Assembly: GCA_023250885.1 (NCBI GenBank)
Contig: JAHEZV010000006.1
Span: 1 to 34,232 of the forward strand
Length of the DNA: 34,232 nucleotides
Origin: Nitrososphaera sp.
Lineage (GTDB): Archaea; Thermoproteota; Nitrososphaeria; Nitrososphaerales; Nitrososphaeraceae
Reading direction: 5' to 3'
The translations under genes and the position numbers were made by a program. The notes below the pieces were generated by a model. That model had not been told where the DNA came from and made no database searches. It saw nothing but the letters and a program-made list of their open reading frames with translations. Below, piece by piece: positions 12,467 through 33,373 of the stretch. Numbering within the stretch: position 1 is the stretch's first letter; every line of letters starts with the position of its first letter.

Positions 12467-12811
12467 TTACAGCGCGCTTTCGCCGCGCTGCTTTGAACCA
12501 ATGTCGACAGCTTCGTCCACATCAGAAACGAATATCTTGCCTTCGCCAGCGAGCCCGGTGCTCGCGATCTGCAGGATCTTTTCGATCACCTTATCCATCA
12601 TAGAGTTCTTTGTAACGATCACTATTGTCGAGTTTACGTTAAACTCTGGCCTGTACGTCCCAGTGCCTCTTCCGGATTGAATCTCTTGTCGCGGTATCTG
12701 GCCGCGTCCTTTCGTGTCGTAATACGTAAAGCCCCCCAAGTCCAATTCTTTGAGCGCCGCAAAAGTTTTGTCTAGCCTTGCAGCAGGAACAACCGCTTCG
12801 ATTTTCTTCAT
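12467..12811 (-). CDS. P-II family nitrogen regulatory protein (GlnK-like)
   Basis: The 114-residue product has standard P-II length and start (MKKIEAVVPAARLDKTFAAL), LGGFTYYDTKGRGQ, GEGKIFVSDVDEAVDIGSK and ends RGESAL. Aligned with E. coli GlnB numbering, Gln39 is replaced by Ile and Tyr51 is absent, as in the neighbouring P-II copy. The TGKIGDG-type B-loop is kept in the form STGLAGEGK, so nucleotide binding is likely retained. It is convergent with the other P-II and the small RHH-like gene. A TATA-like element at about 12838-12851 on the minus strand precedes it. Confidence 0.93.
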   Translation of the reverse strand: MKKIEAVVPAARLDKTFAALKELDLGGFTYYDTKGRGQIPRQEIQSGRGTGTYRPEFNVNSTIVIVTKNSMMDKVIEKILQIASTGLAGEGKIFVSDVDEAVDIGSKQRGESAL

Positions 12812-12951: not shown

Positions 12952-14223
12952 CTACCTTGTTGGAGAGTTAGCCGGTACTGTTTGTGGCAGTCTGTTGCTT
13001 GATGATGTTTCCTTTCCTGTATCGGTCTGGTTTCCCCTGTCTGTTGCGTTGGTGACAGTGTCTGTCATGTTGCCTGCGGGCCCTGTGTCGGTCGCGCTGG
13101 TTGCACTAGTTCCTGTCATCATGGACGGACCGGGGACCTCCTCACTTCCTTTTGGTGGCATCCATGTTCCTTCTGGATGATCATCTGCAGCAGTTTTGTC
13201 ATCTGCAGCTACTGCAAAAGCAGCGCCTTTGACGACATCGTTCATTGCATGATCGACGCCCATGGAGAGGCCTGCTTTGGGGAATGTCGATTCAATCGCC
13301 GAGCCGGATCCTGGCGGGATTGTCCACGTTTCGTCGTTCATGTCCTGCGTGTCGTATCTGTTCTCGATTGAGCCGTCATGCATATTCATCATGCGGCTGA
13401 TGAAATGGAACGCGACATAGTCGTTAGGATCTCGGTTGACGATGTACCATCTCGTCAGTTCCTAGGTTTGACTTTGAATACCTGAGCATCTGGATTCAGT
13501 GGTATCTTGGCAATCGTTCCTATACTTGGAACATACTTGTGAGCCATGCCGTTTGTCATTACCAAGTCTAGGTTGCCTGTGAGGAACTGGCCTACGTCAA
13601 ATGTGCCTGTGCCATTTGCTTTTGTAAAGACGCCATCGATGTTGTTGCCGTGGATCTCGCCAAATACTACATAGAACTCTTCAGCTGGTTTTTCGTTTGG
13701 CGGGGGTACAACTATGCCGCCATACATGCCGCTCGCAATGTGCTCCCATACGCCATTGAGGCGGTCTGCCGCGCAGTGGCAATAGAATATGCCTGCAAAT
13801 TGCGTTTACATGTGCATGTCACTTTTTCACGGCTCGACGGCAGAGCCGGTAGTGCTGGCCTTGGCACCGACAGCTGAATACGGCCCATAGCCTGCGTGTA
13901 AGTCAAGGCTGCGTATCACTTGTCCTTGGTTTATCAGGGTAAATTCAATCGTGTCTCCTTGGTCGACAGCTATGACCGGTCCTGGCGTTGTTCCGTTGAA
14001 GACCATCGCCTTGTATATTACGCCACCCGGGTGTAGCGCGTCGCCTGTAGCTACCTGAAAGTCCTTTTCATCTGCAATCAGGATGACCTTTTTCGTCGCG
14101 CCGGTGCGTTGCGCCTGTGCGTTGCGCCTGTGCGCCGAAGTTGACCCCGGTGAGGGGACCAAATATAACGAATCCAGTCAGCAAGACGCCTGCCGCAATT
14201 CCTGCTATAACGGGTTTGTTCAT
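12952..14223 (-). pseudogene. nirK: NirK-type copper nitrite reductase, disrupted
   Basis: Read with corrections, this encodes a signal or anchor segment (MNKPVIAGIAAGVLLTGF), a first cupredoxin domain (LDLHAGYG, then YCHCAADRLNGVWEHIASGM) and a second with NRDPNDYVAFHFISRM, followed by a Ser/Thr-rich tail. The Cys-His-Met of a type 1 site and the His of a type 2 site match NirK. At least four lesions are seen: a 13-bp tandem duplication (14104-14129) shifts the frame after the signal segment; TGA at 13827-13829 and TAA at 13806-13808 fall in frame; a net 1-nt loss or 2-nt gain near 13450 shifts it again. The expected type 1 His before LDLHA is Arg. The promoter still looks good. NirK is abundant in most ammonia-oxidising archaea; another copy may exist elsewhere. 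Confidence 0.85.
14104..14129. repeat. perfect 13-bp tandem duplication in the nirK pseudogene
   Basis: GTGCGTTGCGCCT occurs twice head to tail (14104-14116 and 14117-14129). Removing one copy puts the ATG at 14223 in frame with the downstream domain, giving ...GAQAQRTGATKKV. The duplication is therefore the cause of the first frameshift. Confidence 0.95.
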
Positions 14224-14356: not shown

Positions 14357-14434
14357 ATGGCGCCGACATACGTTTTTGTACCTGTGCAGGCAAGTAATTT
14401 CGCTTGCACATTTTCGGCAAAAGGCAGGTCGTGA
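14357..14434 (+). CDS. possible 25-residue leader ORF
   Basis: ATG 14357 opens 25 codons (MAPTYVFVPVQASNF...) and ends in a TGA whose first bases overlap the GTG start of the zinc-ribbon gene as GTGA. With a TATA box at leaderless distance, ribosomes would begin here and could re-initiate on the downstream gene. The peptide has no family resemblance I know. An alternative is that a frameshift has split a longer N-terminus of the zinc-ribbon protein. Confidence 0.4.
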   Translation: MAPTYVFVPVQASNFACTFSAKGRS

Positions 14435-14826
14435 ATTGCGCGGTCTGTGGCAAGGAGCTTGGGCGCCATAAATACAAGCCGGGCGAAGAATGGGGAATTG
14501 AAGGCCTGCTCTGCGCCGACTGCCACATAGAGAAGACAAGGGAGTTCATGCTCAAGCAGGAAGAGGTGCCCGACATCTGCGCGATATGCGGCAAAGAAAT
14601 CGCTGGAGAAAGCCATAAGCCAAAGTGGCAGTGGGAGATGGAGCAAGGGAATCTGCTGTGCAAGTCATGCTTTGAGAAAAAAGAGACTGACTATAATAAA
14701 AAAACAAATTCTTGCGCCATCTGCAAAGGCAAGCTCGGGATGTTCTACTACCATCCCAAGCCGGCGTGGCACGTTGAGGGAAATCTCTGCAGGAAATGCT
14801 GGGATAGCAAGAACAGTGATGGGTGA
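14431..14826 (+). CDS. zinc-ribbon protein with three CxxC-CxxC modules
   Basis: From GTG 14431 the product has 131 residues and three similar modules, each about 40 residues: CAVCGKELG...CADCH, CAICGKEIAG...CKSCF and CAICKGKLG...CRKCW. Each pairs two CxxC knuckles and would hold one zinc, like LIM or treble-clef ribbons. A TTG at 14404 would add nine residues. It is soluble and lacks a signal peptide. Function is unknown; RNA, DNA or protein binding is likely for such repeats. Its stop is followed within 4 bp by the C2H2 gene, so the two are probably co-translated. Confidence 0.75.
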   Translation: MNCAVCGKELGRHKYKPGEEWGIEGLLCADCHIEKTREFMLKQEEVPDICAICGKEIAGESHKPKWQWEMEQGNLLCKSCFEKKETDYNKKTNSCAICKGKLGMFYYHPKPAWHVEGNLCRKCWDSKNSDG

Positions 14827-15216: not shown

Positions 15217-15226
15217 ATTTTAAGCT
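15217..15226 (-). promoter_or_regulatory. TATA-like box for rpoP, over the ppdK stop
   Basis: AGCTTAAAAT on the minus strand contains the ppdK TAA and is centred about 27 nt before ATG 15192. This would let rpoP be expressed apart from ppdK. Confidence 0.4.
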
Positions 15227-17901
15227 ATAGTAGAATGCTGCTGGAGGTGCTTGTTCTGCTTGATGGCCGACTGCGCCGCCGCCAGAATGGCAATCGGTAT
15301 CCTGTGAGACGAGGCGCTGACGTAGTCGAGGCCCACGGTGCTGCAGAACTCTATTGAGCGAGGATCGCCGCCATGCTCGCCACAAATGCCGATCTCGATG
15401 TCCTTTTTCACTTTCCTTGCCATGTCAACTGCCATCTTCATCAGCCGGCCCACCCCCTTTATGTCAATACTCTGGAAGGGGTTCACGTTCACGATCCCCT
15501 TTTCGAGGTAGAAGGGCAGGAACTTGCCCTCAGCGTCCTCCCTGCTGAAGCTGAAGGTGGCCTGCGTCAGGTCGTTCGTGCCAAAGCTGATAAAGTCCAC
15601 CAGGTGCGCTATGTCGTCTGCCACGAGGCACGCGCGGACCACTTCGATCATGCTGCCAAACTTGATCTTTAGCTTTATCCTGTGCCGGTGCTCCACTTCC
15701 CGCTTGATCGATTCGAATATCTGCCGCACGGTTGCAAGTTCTTCCACCAGGCCCACCTGCGGCACCATTATCTGGGGCTCGACTGCCATGCCTTCTTTTG
15801 TCAGTTCGGCCGCCGCCTCACACACCGATCTTATCTGGGTCTCGTAGATTTCAGGGAACGAGATCCCCATCCTGACTCCCCTGTGCCCGAGCATCGGGTT
15901 TATCTCTGACAGCTCGTGCACGCGGTGGAATATCTTTTCCATGCGCGCGATCTCGGACGCCTTACCGCCGGCAGACTTGAGCTCGAATATCTTTTGCATC
16001 AGGTCTTCTTCGTTTGGCAGGAACTCGTGGAGCGGCGGGTCAAGCAGCCTTATCGTGACTGGCAGGCCCCGCATTTCCTTAAGGATTGACTTAAAGTCAG
16101 ACCTCTGGAGCGGCTCTAGCTCTTCAAGCGCTCTTCTCCGCTCGTCCTCGTTCTCCGCCATTATCATGTTGACAAACTGCATTATCCTGTCATGCTGGTT
16201 GAACATGCGTTCAGTCCTGCAAAGCCCGATCCCTTCCGCGCCGTACATGCGAGCAAGGATCGCGCTCTCTACAGTGTCGGCGTTTGCCCTTATCTTGATG
16301 CCCTTCATTTCAGAGGACCATTGCAGAAGCTCCTTGAACTCGGACGAAATTTCCGGCTCGACCGTCGGCACCTCGCCTGCATACACCCTGCCTGTCGAGC
16401 CATCTATCGTTATTTTCTGGCCCTCGCTTATCGCCTTTTTGCCGCCCACACTAAAGCTCCTGCCGTCGGCATCGATCTCTATCTGCGAGCACCCGACGAC
16501 GCAGGGTTTGCCCATTCCGCGGGCGACTACCGCCGCGTGTGAGGTCTTGCCGCCGCGGCTTGTCAGTATGCCCACGGACTGGAAGAATGCAGGGACATCG
16601 TCAGGCTTGGTGTCTTCCCTTACCAGGATTACCTTCTCGCCCTTTTTGCCAAGCGCCTCTGCCCGCGAAACGTCAAACACAACCGTCCCGCTGGCCGCGC
16701 CGGGCGACGCGCCGACGCCTGTCGCGATCGCATTTTGCTCTGCATGCGCATCTATCCTGCGGTACAGGATTTGCTCGAGGCCTTCAGGGTCGATGCGCTC
16801 AAGCGCTGCGGCCTTGCTGATGAGCCCCTCGTGGTAAAGGTCTATTGAAGTCTTGACAGCCGCGACCGCGTTCATCTTCGCCGCCCTTGTCTGCAGGATG
16901 TGGAGCCAGCTCTTTTCAACAGTGAATTCTACGTCCTGCGGCTCCTTGAAGTGGTTCTCCAGTTTTTCGCACACTTCAAGCAATTGCTGGTAGACGTCCG
17001 GCATTTCGCTGACAAGCGAGTCGATGTGGTTAGGGGTGGTCTTGCCCGACACGACGTCCTCGCCCTGTGCGTTAACAAGATAATCGCCGTACAGCCGCTT
17101 TTCGCCTGTGTCCGGGTCTCGGGTGAACACCACGCCGGTGCAGCTGTCGCTTCCCATGTTGCCAAAGACCATTGCGACTATTGTGACTGCGGTGCCGCCG
17201 GCCATGTCAGGGGTGATGTTGTACTGCTTGCGGTATTCCACCGCGCGCTTGCCGGTCCACGACCGGAACACCGCGTCGATCGCGAGCTCTAGTTGCTTGT
17301 ACTCGTCGGCAGGGAATTTCTTCCCAGCGTCTTCGCAGAGCGACTTGAACGACCCTGCCACGCCCTTGACCACCTTCTGGCTTGACAGGTCCTTGCCGGC
17401 AAGAATGTTTTCAAATTTCCGATCATCGATGCCCAGAACAATCTTGCCAAACATCTGGATGAACCGCCGGTACGCGTCCCACGCAAACCTTGGATTGTTT
17501 CTCTGCCTTGCAAGCCCTTCCACAGTTTCGTCGTTGAGGCCTAGGTTGAGGATCGTGTCCATCATGCCGGGCATCGACACGGGGGCGCCGGAGCGCACCG
17601 ACACAAGGAGCGGATTTTCAGGATCGCCGAATTTCTTGCCTGTCGCACTTTCGAGGTGTTTTATTGATCTCCGCACTTCGTCCATCAGGCCATCAGGCAG
17701 GCGTCTGCCAGCTTCGTAGAATTTTTCACAAATTTCAGTTGTTACTATAAAGCCGGGCGGGACCGGAAGGCCAAGCCTCGTCATTTCTGCAAGGCCGGCG
17801 CCCTTGCCCCCTAGCAGCATTTTGTTCCTGCCGTCTGCCTCGTCGAAAAAGTATATCGGCTTGATAGTGGCCGGGGTTCTGCCAAAACCTTCCTCGAACA
17901 T
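15220..17901 (-). CDS. ppdK: pyruvate, phosphate dikinase
   Basis: The 893-residue cytosolic enzyme converts pyruvate, ATP and phosphate to phosphoenolpyruvate, AMP and PPi, the entry to gluconeogenesis in thaumarchaea. The N-terminal ATP-grasp part shows GGKGAGLAEMTRLGLPVPPGF, VRSGAPVSMPGMMDTILN and TRDPDTGEKRLYGDYL. The phosphohistidine domain has GGKTSHAAVVARGMGKPCVVG, with His about 455. The PEP-binding barrel has GLCRTERMF, EINPMLGHRGVRMGI, SFGTNDLTQ and GICGEHGGDP. PPDK, not PEP synthase, is indicated by length and the GDPRSIEF ending. Its TATA box, GTTTTAAACC, recurs before fbp. Confidence 0.97.
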   Translation of the reverse strand: MFEEGFGRTPATIKPIYFFDEADGRNKMLLGGKGAGLAEMTRLGLPVPPGFIVTTEICEKFYEAGRRLPDGLMDEVRRSIKHLESATGKKFGDPENPLLVSVRSGAPVSMPGMMDTILNLGLNDETVEGLARQRNNPRFAWDAYRRFIQMFGKIVLGIDDRKFENILAGKDLSSQKVVKGVAGSFKSLCEDAGKKFPADEYKQLELAIDAVFRSWTGKRAVEYRKQYNITPDMAGGTAVTIVAMVFGNMGSDSCTGVVFTRDPDTGEKRLYGDYLVNAQGEDVVSGKTTPNHIDSLVSEMPDVYQQLLEVCEKLENHFKEPQDVEFTVEKSWLHILQTRAAKMNAVAAVKTSIDLYHEGLISKAAALERIDPEGLEQILYRRIDAHAEQNAIATGVGASPGAASGTVVFDVSRAEALGKKGEKVILVREDTKPDDVPAFFQSVGILTSRGGKTSHAAVVARGMGKPCVVGCSQIEIDADGRSFSVGGKKAISEGQKITIDGSTGRVYAGEVPTVEPEISSEFKELLQWSSEMKGIKIRANADTVESAILARMYGAEGIGLCRTERMFNQHDRIMQFVNMIMAENEDERRRALEELEPLQRSDFKSILKEMRGLPVTIRLLDPPLHEFLPNEEDLMQKIFELKSAGGKASEIARMEKIFHRVHELSEINPMLGHRGVRMGISFPEIYETQIRSVCEAAAELTKEGMAVEPQIMVPQVGLVEELATVRQIFESIKREVEHRHRIKLKIKFGSMIEVVRACLVADDIAHLVDFISFGTNDLTQATFSFSREDAEGKFLPFYLEKGIVNVNPFQSIDIKGVGRLMKMAVDMARKVKKDIEIGICGEHGGDPRSIEFCSTVGLDYVSASSHRIPIAILAAAQSAIKQNKHLQQHSTIA

Positions 17902-18799: not shown

Positions 18800-19159
18800 A
18801 TGACTGTTGACGACGAAAGCGACATTCTTTACGTACTAAAATCGGGCATTGAAAAAAATCTTGGTTACAGCGTCTGTACTTATTCAGAGCCATTACAAGC
18901 CCTCAAGCATTTCAAGGATAGCCCTGACGCGTACGATTTTGTCATATCAGATGTGCGGATGCCTGAAATGACCGGTTTTGAGTTTGTGCGGCACATCAAA
19001 GAGATCAGGCCGGATGTCAAGGTCGTGCTCATGACGGCGTTTGATATAAACCAGTCAGAATTTGGAAGGGTACTCCCTTCGACAAAAATGGACGGCTTTG
19101 TGACAAAACCTGCGACCCTGAAAGTCATGTCCGCCGCGATAGAAAAATACCTTTATTAA
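18800..19159 (+). CDS. stand-alone response-regulator receiver
   Basis: The 119-residue product is a CheY-like receiver with no output domain: acidic pair Asp4-Asp5, phosphoacceptor Asp51 in VISDVRMPEMTG, Thr79 in LMTAFD and Lys103 in VTKPA. The ATG at 18800 leaves only three residues before the acidic pair, shorter than usual. The frame remains open upstream with a plausible strand (KRKLQL) but no ATG, GTG or TTG before a TAA at 18731. Only CTG 18797 is available. No histidine kinase is adjacent. The stop abuts the stop of tpiA on the other strand. Confidence 0.88.
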   Translation: MTVDDESDILYVLKSGIEKNLGYSVCTYSEPLQALKHFKDSPDAYDFVISDVRMPEMTGFEFVRHIKEIRPDVKVVLMTAFDINQSEFGRVLPSTKMDGFVTKPATLKVMSAAIEKYLY

Positions 19160-26536: not shown

Positions 26537-27373
26537 ATGGACTCTAAAATTGCAGTCGCTGTCGGGCTTGCAGCAGTCCTTGCTGCAGCGCTGATACCAA
26601 TATCGACACCCAAACCGGCCTTTGCAGCCACCGTAGCTGTAGACATAACAGTCGGTTCATCAAGCAAGACAACTGATGCCTTTTCCCCAAACCCAGTGAA
26701 TGTTAATGTTGGCGACACTGTGATATGGACCAACCAAGACATCCAGCCGCACACAGTCACGTCTGGAATAGGCTCGCCACCGGCAACGCCGGATGGCAAG
26801 TTTGACTCTTCGCCGAACTTCCAGCCATTACTTCAGCATGGAGATACATTCAGCCACACGTTCACCGAGGCAGGCGAGTATCCGTACTACTGTGGTCTGC
26901 ATACGAACATGGTAGGAACGGTAATAGTGGCAGCTGCAGGTGGCAATGGAGGCAATGGCGGAACTCCAAAAGAAACCAAGCTCACTGCAACACTAGATGG
27001 AAAGAGCTACGAAGTAACCAGCAAGTCAATGACCTCTATGGCAACAGAGGTTACAATCCAATCCGGCCAGTCAGTGACCCTCAAGTTCGACAAAGCTGGT
27101 GAAGTAGAACTTACTTTGCTGAAAACGATGATCGGTGGCATCAACGATGTCAGTGCAGGAGGAAAATCAATCGACTTTACGCAGACCAATAGCGCCGATT
27201 CGACCACAATCAAGTTCACCTTGCCAGAAGGCTCTACCACAGTCGTGATCAAGGGTGCAACAGTGGTTCCTGAATTCCCGGTCATTGCGGCAATACTGGC
27301 AGCGTCAATCGTAGGAATTATAGTCTACACCAGATTCGCAAGAAACGGAACAGCATTCATTGGAAGAGCGTAA
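26537..27373 (+). CDS. membrane-anchored cupredoxin (plastocyanin-like) with stalk domain
   Basis: The 278-residue protein has a signal peptide (to about residue 30), a blue-copper domain (about 33-132) with ligands His72, Cys119, His122 and Met125 (CGLHTNM), a Gly-rich hinge, a beta-rich stalk (about 149-243), PEFP (245-248), a membrane helix and a basic tail. It should carry electrons outside the cell membrane; ammonia-oxidising archaea use such copper proteins where bacteria use cytochromes. Its partner is unknown. The stalk resembles the C-terminus of the FN3/NHL protein (TLDGKSY..., then TIKFT.P.G...V..GA.VVPEF). Confidence 0.92.
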   Translation: MDSKIAVAVGLAAVLAAALIPISTPKPAFAATVAVDITVGSSSKTTDAFSPNPVNVNVGDTVIWTNQDIQPHTVTSGIGSPPATPDGKFDSSPNFQPLLQHGDTFSHTFTEAGEYPYYCGLHTNMVGTVIVAAAGGNGGNGGTPKETKLTATLDGKSYEVTSKSMTSMATEVTIQSGQSVTLKFDKAGEVELTLLKTMIGGINDVSAGGKSIDFTQTNSADSTTIKFTLPEGSTTVVIKGATVVPEFPVIAAILAASIVGIIVYTRFARNGTAFIGRA

Positions 27374-27526
27374 ACGCCTTCCTATCTTCTATATTTTTGG
27401 TTATCGGAATAGGGTATTATCCCGGTGGTTTTCACGGCAGGTCGTCTTCCTCACCCCATTTCGGCTTTTGCGTTGCCAACAAATACTCTCTAGAATTATT
27501 GTCAGATACTCCTCTAAGGTTTGACG

Positions 27527-27545
27527 GCCAACCAAATCATTTTAT
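27527..27545 (+). promoter_or_regulatory. promoter of cupredoxin 2
   Basis: GCCAACCAAATCATTTTAT, near-identical to the cupredoxin 1 promoter, is about 26 nt (TATA centre) before GTG 27569 and so also decides that start. Confidence 0.6.
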
Positions 27546-27568
27546 CCCTTGAAAGATTTTCTATCTTA

Positions 27569-28108
27569 GTGAATGTGAAAATTGCAGTCGCTATAGGGCT
27601 ACCAGCAGTGGTTGCTGCTACGCTATTACCAATATTGGCCTCCGTGCCAGCCTATGCAGCTAATGTCGCCGCAAACATAACAATCGGTGCACAAAGCAAG
27701 ACAACCGATGCCTATTCGCCAAACCCACTAAAGATCAACGTTGGCGACACTATAACATGGACAAACAAAGATTCAGCTCCACACACAGTCACATCGGGTT
27801 CCAGTGCAACGCCAGATGGCAAGTTTGACTCCTCTCCAGGCTTTAGACAGCTGCTGATTCCAGAGGGAACATTTAGCCACACATTTGAAGAAGCAGGCGA
27901 GTATCCGTACTACTGTGGTCTGCATGCGAACATGGTAGGAACGGTAATAGTGGCAGCTGGAGGCGACAATGGCGGAACTCCACAGGACACCAGTATCACT
28001 GCACTAATTTTCCCTATCATTGTCGCAATACTGGCAGCATCGATTGCAGCGATCATAGGCTACGCCAGATTCGCAAGAAAGAGAACAGGTTCCTCTGGAA
28101 CGCCTTAA
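27569..28108 (+). CDS. membrane-anchored cupredoxin, stalk-less paralogue
   Basis: The 179-residue protein matches cupredoxin 1 from its signal peptide (MNVKIAVAIGLPAVVAATLL) through the copper site (His72, Cys116, His119, Met122) and the Gly-rich hinge, then jumps directly to a membrane helix (IFPIIVAILAASIAAIIGYARFARK). The stalk of about 95 residues is missing and PEFP has become IFPI. GTG 27569 is chosen by promoter spacing and by alignment to MDSKIAVAVG of the paralogue; the frame is open to TTG/ATG 27521. Presumably it is an electron carrier held closer to the membrane. Confidence 0.92.
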   Translation: MNVKIAVAIGLPAVVAATLLPILASVPAYAANVAANITIGAQSKTTDAYSPNPLKINVGDTITWTNKDSAPHTVTSGSSATPDGKFDSSPGFRQLLIPEGTFSHTFEEAGEYPYYCGLHANMVGTVIVAAGGDNGGTPQDTSITALIFPIIVAILAASIAAIIGYARFARKRTGSSGTP

Positions 28109-30451: not shown

Positions 30452-33373
30452 ATGCTGGGCAGACACTGGCTCTTCGGCCTGATCGCGGCGATCGCCTTCC
30501 TGACGCTTGCATCAGGATTTCAGCAGTCGTTTGCCCACCCTGTTACTATAGACTCTTCGCCGAAGGCGTTTGAGGGCGTGCGGTCGCCACCCAAGGAAGT
30601 CAACGCGTTCTTCAGCGAGCCGATAGAGCTCAGCTACAGCAAGATATCCGTGATAGGACCTGACGGCAGCAAGGTAGACAATAATGACCCTCATAACGTA
30701 GAGGGCGACACTGCTTCAATAGGCGTCACGCTAAAGCCAGATCTTCCTGACGGCGAATACACGGTATCAACGACTGTGCTTTCTGCCGTTGACGGGCACG
30801 TTATTTCTGGCACTTTTGTCTTTGGCATAGGCACAAAGCCGCAGCCGATTGGAACCGGCAATGAACAGCAGCAGGACATACTGTCTCCGGGCAATTCCGC
30901 GGCAAGGTTCCCCGGGATGGTTGGGCAGGTGATGGTTGTCGGCGCTGCATTTGGCACCCTCTGGTTGTGGAAGCCGCTCGCAAGGGTGCCATGGCTGTCA
31001 AGCGCAATATCTCAGACACGCGTCGCGATAGACAGGAGCATGATGCGCCTAATGATAATCGGCATAGCCCTCATTCTTGCATCCGGCGTAGCCATGATAG
31101 TTGTCCAAGCAATTTCAATTAACTCAGGGATACCGGAGGCAGTCGCGACAAAGTTTGGCAACGTTTGGGTCGCTAGGATGTTCCAGTCGTCCATCCTCAT
31201 GGGCATCGTCTTTGCAGTCTATCGCAAGGCTGCAAAGAACAACACCAGCCCCGGGAGGACGGAAATCTATGCTATATTGATCCTTGGGCTTGCGGTGCTT
31301 GTCACGTCGAGTCTGATAACCCACGCGGCCGCGACGAGCCAAACCACCCCAATAATGTTTGACTTTTTCCACAACGCCGCCGCTTCGATATGGATAGGCG
31401 GCCTGATATTGCTTGGCTTTGTAGCAGTTCCCAATATCCTTGCGATCGGCGACGAAAGGATCAAGGCTGTCGCGCTTTCGATCCTGATCCCCCGCTTCTC
31501 GACGGTGGTGGTTACGCTGCTTGGCATCGCGGTGATAACCGGGCCGGTCCTGCTGTTTGCACTTGAAAGCGACCTTTCGCTCACCCTGGCATCCATCTAC
31601 GGCAAGATACTGGCAGTCAAGCTCGGGCTTGCCGGCGTTATGGTTGGGATGGGCACGTACTCGCAGTTTGTAGTCCAGAAAAGGGCTGTGGCCGTGATGG
31701 TTGGCGGCGGGTCAGGCATGCAGGGCCCTAGCCTCAGGCACTACGGCAAGACTCTCAAGGCGGAGGCCGCTGTCGGGATTGCGCTTCTGCTGGCAGTATC
31801 CCTGATGGCTAATGGAGCGCTGCCATCAGGTCAATTCCCAACATACGCGCGCCAGCAGTCAGACGGCCAATCCGCCTTTGCAGAAGAGACCAAGACTGAT
31901 TTTGTTAGGACGCTGTACTCAGATCAGGGCAAGATTCAGCTTGTAATAGCCCCCTTTGCAGTCGGGCAGAACAACTTCAAGGTATCATTCCTTAACGAGG
32001 ACGGCAGCAAGGCCACAGGAATCGAGTCTACAACGATAAAGCTGACGCAGATCGACAGAGGCATCGGCCCAATAACGATTGAAACCAAAACGCAGTCAGA
32101 AAGCGTTTTTTCGGCAGACGCGGCGTTCAGCCTGCCGGGAACATGGCACTTCGAGATCGAGGGTCTGAGCACGCAGGGAAGCAACATGCTGGCAACCCTT
32201 GACGCGAACGTCAAGCCAAAGGTATCAAACCTCCAGTTCAAGGTTGACGGATACAAGACGCCGGCCAGCAGCCTGCCGCTCTATCCGGTCTTTGACGCTG
32301 CAAGACAGTCCATATGGGTGGGTGACTCGCTGCCAGGAAGCAGCAGGATATGGCAGCTGAACATTGCAACGGGCAACTACACCATGCACAAAATAAGCGA
32401 CGCGGCCCTGATAACGAATACGGTGCTTGCCCCCGACGGCAGTCTCTGGTACATCGACCCCATAGGCGGCGGGTCGAGCGGTGGATCAAACAAAGGCGCG
32501 CTTGGCATCTACAACCCCGAAGACAGCTCCAGCAGGCGTTTTGTGGTGCCGGAGGCCGGCATCCCCTCAGGTCTTGCAATGGACGGCAACGGCAACCTGT
32601 GGATGCCGATAGTCCAGGCCAACAAGGTGGCCAAGTTCGAGCCTGCGAGCGAAAAATTCTCGTTGTATGAAATACCGACGCCAGAGGCAGAGCCAGCCGG
32701 GATCGCTGCCGACAGCTCGGGGAACATCTGGTTTGCAGAGGCCGCCGGCAAGATCGCCAAGATTGACCCGGCCTCAGGCAAGATCACCGAGTACGCACCA
32801 AACGGCAAGCTCCAGACGCTTGACACCCCAGCTGCGGTTTTCCCCGACCCCAAGAGCTCTGACATCTACATTGCAGAGCACGAAGGCCACACGATATCGG
32901 TGTTCAATACGTTGCTTGGCTCTTTCCGCGAGTATCCTTCAGTCAATGAAGACGGTCTACCTTTTGGCATGGCGATGGACAGCTATGGCAACCTGTGGTT
33001 TGCAGAGCACACGATAGACAGGGTTGGTGTGTTGGACCCGAGGACGGGCGAAGGGTCGGAGGCCAAGATCCCGATCTCAGGATCCCAAATACAGTGGATA
33101 ACCGCGGATGACAAGGGCAAGATCTGGTTTGCGGCGCAGCGCGGGTCTGCAATTGGCAGCATCACGATAACTGCCAAGGCGTCAACCACCCCGGCTGATA
33201 GCGGCCAACAGGATCAGTCTGCAGTCAGCATCCCCCAGCTTCCATTCTCCTTCACAAATGCGGTAGGGCCGGCAATCGCAGCCGGGATTGTGATAAGCGC
33301 GCTTGCGTACAGCAAGAGTGCATTAGACCTCAAGCGCAACGTTCGGTCTGCGCTGCAGCTTGAAAGGCGCTAG
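30452..33373 (+). CDS. CopC-CopD fusion with C-terminal Vgb-like propeller
   Basis: The 973-residue protein has a signal peptide ending QQSFA and a CopC domain (about 29-132) with a mature N-terminal His (HPVTIDSSP) and DGHVISG, both usual Cu(II) ligands. A CopD membrane part (about 147-465) has several helices with MFQSS, TSSLITHAAATS and FFHNAAASIWIGG. A beta domain follows (about 480-595), then a propeller (about 600-905) with repeats such as GNLWFAEHTIDRVGVLDP, as in virginiamycin B lyase. One last helix and RR end it. CopC-CopD handles periplasmic copper and imports it; the propeller at the end is unusual. The copper-rich electron chain of ammonia oxidisers gives context. Enzymatic lyase activity is doubtful. 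Confidence 0.9.
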   Translation: MLGRHWLFGLIAAIAFLTLASGFQQSFAHPVTIDSSPKAFEGVRSPPKEVNAFFSEPIELSYSKISVIGPDGSKVDNNDPHNVEGDTASIGVTLKPDLPDGEYTVSTTVLSAVDGHVISGTFVFGIGTKPQPIGTGNEQQQDILSPGNSAARFPGMVGQVMVVGAAFGTLWLWKPLARVPWLSSAISQTRVAIDRSMMRLMIIGIALILASGVAMIVVQAISINSGIPEAVATKFGNVWVARMFQSSILMGIVFAVYRKAAKNNTSPGRTEIYAILILGLAVLVTSSLITHAAATSQTTPIMFDFFHNAAASIWIGGLILLGFVAVPNILAIGDERIKAVALSILIPRFSTVVVTLLGIAVITGPVLLFALESDLSLTLASIYGKILAVKLGLAGVMVGMGTYSQFVVQKRAVAVMVGGGSGMQGPSLRHYGKTLKAEAAVGIALLLAVSLMANGALPSGQFPTYARQQSDGQSAFAEETKTDFVRTLYSDQGKIQLVIAPFAVGQNNFKVSFLNEDGSKATGIESTTIKLTQIDRGIGPITIETKTQSESVFSADAAFSLPGTWHFEIEGLSTQGSNMLATLDANVKPKVSNLQFKVDGYKTPASSLPLYPVFDAARQSIWVGDSLPGSSRIWQLNIATGNYTMHKISDAALITNTVLAPDGSLWYIDPIGGGSSGGSNKGALGIYNPEDSSSRRFVVPEAGIPSGLAMDGNGNLWMPIVQANKVAKFEPASEKFSLYEIPTPEAEPAGIAADSSGNIWFAEAAGKIAKIDPASGKITEYAPNGKLQTLDTPAAVFPDPKSSDIYIAEHEGHTISVFNTLLGSFREYPSVNEDGLPFGMAMDSYGNLWFAEHTIDRVGVLDPRTGEGSEAKIPISGSQIQWITADDKGKIWFAAQRGSAIGSITITAKASTTPADSGQQDQSAVSIPQLPFSFTNAVGPAIAAGIVISALAYSKSALDLKRNVRSALQLERR

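Follow-up and report, generated by a model that had tools for sequence, protein, structure and literature searches.

The NirK of N. viennensis is expressed and has been shown to make NO (PMC6308003). In ammonia-oxidising archaea (AOA) nirK is treated as often multi-copy (PMC10579303), and two nirK genes are attributed to N. evergladensis (PMC4084955). Other AOA, including Nitrosocaldus and Cenarchaeum, have no nirK at all (PMC5817080). Here we describe a gene of the same family as the N. viennensis nirK which has become a pseudogene in a Nitrososphaera genome. Like the nirK-less AOA, this lineage has lost a nirK; unlike them, it has one dead copy out of two. It also differs from N. viennensis, where the functional NirK is encoded at another locus and the locus studied here (locus A) is without nirK. 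The closest counterpart is the locus A NirK of the relative G011, which shares with the pseudogene its gene order, its place in the tree as sister and a Thr/Asn-rich tail without a fused cupredoxin, but has an intact frame of 427 amino acids and all Cu ligands. We found no report of a nirK pseudogene in Nitrososphaera in the literature searched. The pseudogene is a fresh instance of an ordinary kind.

Results

The window, a stretch of 34,232 nucleotides from Nitrososphaera sp. (GCA_023250885.1, JAHEZV010000006.1), is contig C67 of a 1.49-Mb assembly with 100 contigs and 95% completeness. Archaeal AmoA is encoded on contig C71 of the same assembly and the organism is therefore a genuine ammonia oxidiser. 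Public relatives that share their nirK contigs with members of the genus were deposited under Nitrososphaera sp. or Nitrososphaeraceae. The relative G011, with which both loci discussed below are compared, is a single contig of 2,833,868 bp. Elsewhere in the window, a membrane protein of 973 amino acids (30452-33373) combines CopC, CopD and a virginiamycin B lyase-like propeller, and two plastocyanin-like genes lie close to it at 26537-28108. A response regulator gene (18800-19159) matches G011 (L042:14646-15000) in two pieces and in different frames, hinting that the G011 copy carries a frameshift.

There are two main nirK loci in the genus which can be told apart by gene order. The window carries locus A, with the order PII, nirK, Zn-ribbon and PPDK (Table 1). 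Locus B has MCO1 and a ZIP permease as neighbours and, further on, an EF1A-like gene. Both loci are occupied by nirK in G011, G013 and G008. In six relatives (G011, G004, G006, G002, G013 and G008) nirK-A is open as far as the contig reaches. In six others (G017, G012, G014, G015, G016 and G007) it is absent, with the PII and Zn-ribbon genes adjacent to each other, and all six retain another nirK. G017 has kept both the downstream flank of nirK-A and the Zn-ribbon promoter region, and the PPDK tree groups it with the nirK-A carriers with moderate support. Judging from these sequences, G017 looks like a second, independent loss of nirK-A, by deletion. For the other five genomes, the gene may have been lost or may never have been there.

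The locus A and locus B NirKs formed separate clades across several species, indicating that the duplication is old and that a long-standing paralog was lost. The first-pass annotation had proposed decay perhaps after duplication. The paralog setting and the stepwise decay bear this out, but a recent duplication as the origin of the pseudogene is rejected on the separation of the two clades. In G008, the locus A (L053) and locus B (L054) copies are mutual nearest relatives (100/100), suggesting that the two loci underwent gene conversion or that a separate duplication occurred in that genome.

The minus-strand gene had been described as a nirK homologue that retains its signal segment and the two cupredoxin domains as well as most Cu ligands, and this description holds over the full length. 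The read-through protein is up to 70% identical to the intact NirKs of relatives from end to end, and one fragment matches NirK with an E-value of 1.6e-149; with the gene order also conserved on either side, the match is far beyond chance. The coding signal is split over different frames, with the signal segment and both cupredoxin domains still recognisable. The TIGR02376 profile (NCBIfam) gave 97.8 bits for the pseudogene and 131-153 bits for intact AOA NirKs against a cut-off of 296.3; its cut-off was rejected as a test of function because the intact proteins also score below it.

Lesions were called from a DNA alignment with three intact orthologues (L042, L044 and L045), which revealed four frame-breaking indels of +13, −2, −1 and −1. 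The 13-bp duplication frameshift and a 1-nt frameshift near 13450, both noted in the annotation, were thereby located. Tandem Repeats Finder also reported the former (14094-14134, period 13); this duplication is of the slippage type and lengthened an imperfect repeat that was already older. The 2-nt deletion and the upstream 1-nt deletion were additional to the earlier list, and they correct the view that the gene has two in-frame stops 21 bp apart. The TGA and TAA are read only between these two deletions and arise from the frame shift caused by the former; they are not true nonsense codons. In the frame of the orthologues this stretch reads EKVTCTCK where G011 has ESVTWTWK, and the sole stop in the ancestral frame is the terminal TAG. 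Because the indels add up to +9, the first and last parts of the pseudogene are in one frame.

Table 1. Positions of the features described in the text (window coordinates unless an L handle is given).
Feature	Position	Strand	Details
nirK pseudogene (locus A paralog)	12952..14223	-	ATG 14221-14223, terminal TAG 12952-12954; gene order and read-through match to intact NirK of relatives
13-bp tandem duplication, +1 frameshift	14108..14133	-	Units 14121-14133 and 14108-14120; alignment with L042, L044, L045
2-nt deletion	between 13831/13830	-	Alignment with intact orthologues
1-nt deletion	between 13805/13804	-	Alignment with intact orthologues
1-nt deletion	between 13462/13461	-	Alignment with intact orthologues
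TGA (13827-13829) and TAA (13806-13808)	13806..13829	-	Stops only in displaced frame
Type 1 Cu ligand His to Arg	13911..13913	-	H100R in G011 numbering, N. viennensis His101
PII-family gene, locus A flank	12467..12811	-	87% identical to PII gene beside intact nirK-A of G011
Zn-ribbon-like protein gene, locus A flank	14404..14826	+	84% identity to the gene at this place in G011
PPDK (pyruvate phosphate dikinase, named from sequence), locus A anchor	15220..17901	-	90% identical in G011, same place, whole length intact
NirK-plastocyanin fusions, Pfam-confirmed	L044:6107-7765, L045:8549-10240, L046:439-2007		
NirK-plastocyanin fusions, motif only	L053, L075, L077, L085, L086, L088		L053 cut by contig end

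Six of the seven Cu ligands are retained. The ligand positions were taken from PMC6308003, where the labels type 1 and type 2 seem to be interchanged in the text; the seven N. viennensis positions align exactly with L056 of G015. The type 2 set is complete (H105, H146 and H322 in G011 numbering). In the type 1 set the Cys, the second His and the Met are present and the first His is Arg, in agreement with the substitution reported earlier. At 101 invariant positions defined from 18 intact NirKs, 12 residues are changed in the pseudogene, including His100 (G011 numbering), Trp133 and Tyr145, compared with 0-8 in each intact NirK tested alike.

The NirK tree places the pseudogene with the locus A copy of G011 as its sister (support 90/91); the pseudogene's branch measures 0.50 versus 0.15. 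Counted at codons that do not differ among the other three sequences, this branch carries 24.5 nonsynonymous to 30.5 synonymous changes, against 5 to 29 for the sister (Fisher P 0.005). Pairwise dN/dS between the two is still about 0.15; the gene was therefore functional through most of its history and its decay is a recent part of it. Synonymous sites are near saturation. The adjoining genes align with those of relatives over their full length and are free of frameshifts, which speaks against a poor assembly. The gene thus combines frame-destroying lesions with a loss of constraint, seen as replacement excess, lost invariant residues and a long branch, and we take it to be a pseudogene. From its sequence we conclude that the product can no longer be a working nitrite reductase.

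In several locus A NirKs a long linker rich in Thr, Asn and Gly fuses the enzyme to a plastocyanin-type domain (PF00127) at the C-terminus, which may be a tethered electron donor. The linker is present and the domain absent in both the G011 locus A NirK and the pseudogene of the window. A remnant of a fused cupredoxin 3' of the pseudogene was considered and rejected, as no more than about 140 bp separate it from the PII gene, which is also the spacing in G011.

The assembly was examined for another nirK and the 5' end of the locus B gene was found on contig C52. This contig is collinear with locus B of G011 over 8.4 kb at 81% identity; it covers the genes upstream and stops 46 nt inside nirK. 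The 15 nirK-B codons that it holds are all identical to those of G011. Nothing of nirK-B beyond codon 15 was found in the assembly, nor any contig that overlaps the end of C52 and continues the gene. On the far side of the gap the locus resumes on contig C41, at a tRNA and a glycerol-1-phosphate dehydrogenase gene. The EF1A-like GTPase gene and its neighbour, which stand beside nirK-B in G011 (L043:11811-13335), were not found in the genome of the window and are either in the gap between C52 and C41 or lost. The multicopper oxidase of C52 (L001) was rejected as a NirK replacement, being a two-domain MCO beside the ZIP permease that is syntenic with G011 L043:5045-6064.

Of 11 contigs in the genus, four have an end no more than 85 nt from this conserved nirK start (0.15 expected; the cut-off of 85 nt was chosen after seeing the data). 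They are C52 of the genome under study (G000), at its start, and C79, C19 and C143 of G003, G005 and G007, respectively. The nirK leader and start are near-identical across species and metagenome assemblies therefore fork there. We read the absent remainder of nirK-B, of which only 15 codons are seen, as an assembly gap.

Discussion

It is very probable that the nirK paralog at locus A is a true pseudogene here, a dispensable copy which decayed stepwise while nirK-B persisted. We propose that, of the two old nirK loci in the genus, locus A lost its selective value in this lineage, most likely due to redundancy with nirK-B. The slippage duplication and the three small deletions would then have accumulated, along with many replacements, one of them at a type 1 Cu ligand. 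NirK would presumably be supplied by nirK-B beside MCO1 and ZIP, if that gene is complete and active.

An alternative is that NirK function is wholly lost, with nirK-B also broken, an insertion at codon 15 being one possible cause of the contig end, and NO made without NirK. The stop of C52 inside nirK-B and the absence of further nirK sequence from the assembly agree with this, and so does the missing EF1A-like gene and its neighbour, as the locus may be rearranged. We nevertheless consider it unlikely. The clustering of contig ends at the same start and the near-identity of the leader are what an assembly fork would predict. Conservation is complete both upstream of nirK-B and in its first 15 codons. 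Elsewhere, AOA wholly lacking nirK are known chiefly among the Nitrosocaldales, along with a sponge symbiont (PMC5817080). The annotation had held that loss of the gene bears on how NO is made, and this is not supported: a second nirK starts at the edge of C52 and the relatives without nirK-A keep another copy.

The remaining explanations concern the gene itself. Errors of assembly or sequencing in a nirK-A that is intact in the organism are conceivable in so fragmented an assembly. Such errors would have to produce four different indels, one of them 13 bp, leave the neighbours untouched and confine the replacement excess at invariant sites to one gene, and base errors have no preference for conserved codons; we regard this as highly improbable. 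Less probable still is a functional gene that is split, recoded or frameshifted and made in pieces or by programmed frameshifts. The retention of the start region, the promoter region and six Cu ligands, along with the pairwise dN/dS, would fit such a gene, but that ratio is an average which takes in a long period of function. Moreover, three internal frame changes and the missing residues H100, W133 and Y145 are in keeping with decay, and in the closest intact orthologues the gene is one uninterrupted frame. We therefore favor the decay of a redundant paralog.

The genome is not without a further nirK, since the 5' end of another copy is present on C52, and an apparently NirK-less Nitrososphaera was probably a false lead. 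Because contigs tend to end at the conserved nirK start, absence of nirK from metagenome-assembled genomes of this genus can be an artefact and the gene may be under-counted. Were nirK-B broken too, a Nitrososphaera-type AOA would oxidise ammonia without a working NirK, and the NO source of AOA, an open question, would become testable in this lineage. As it stands, one locus presents a series of intact, decaying and deleted nirK genes through which the role of a second NirK can be explored.
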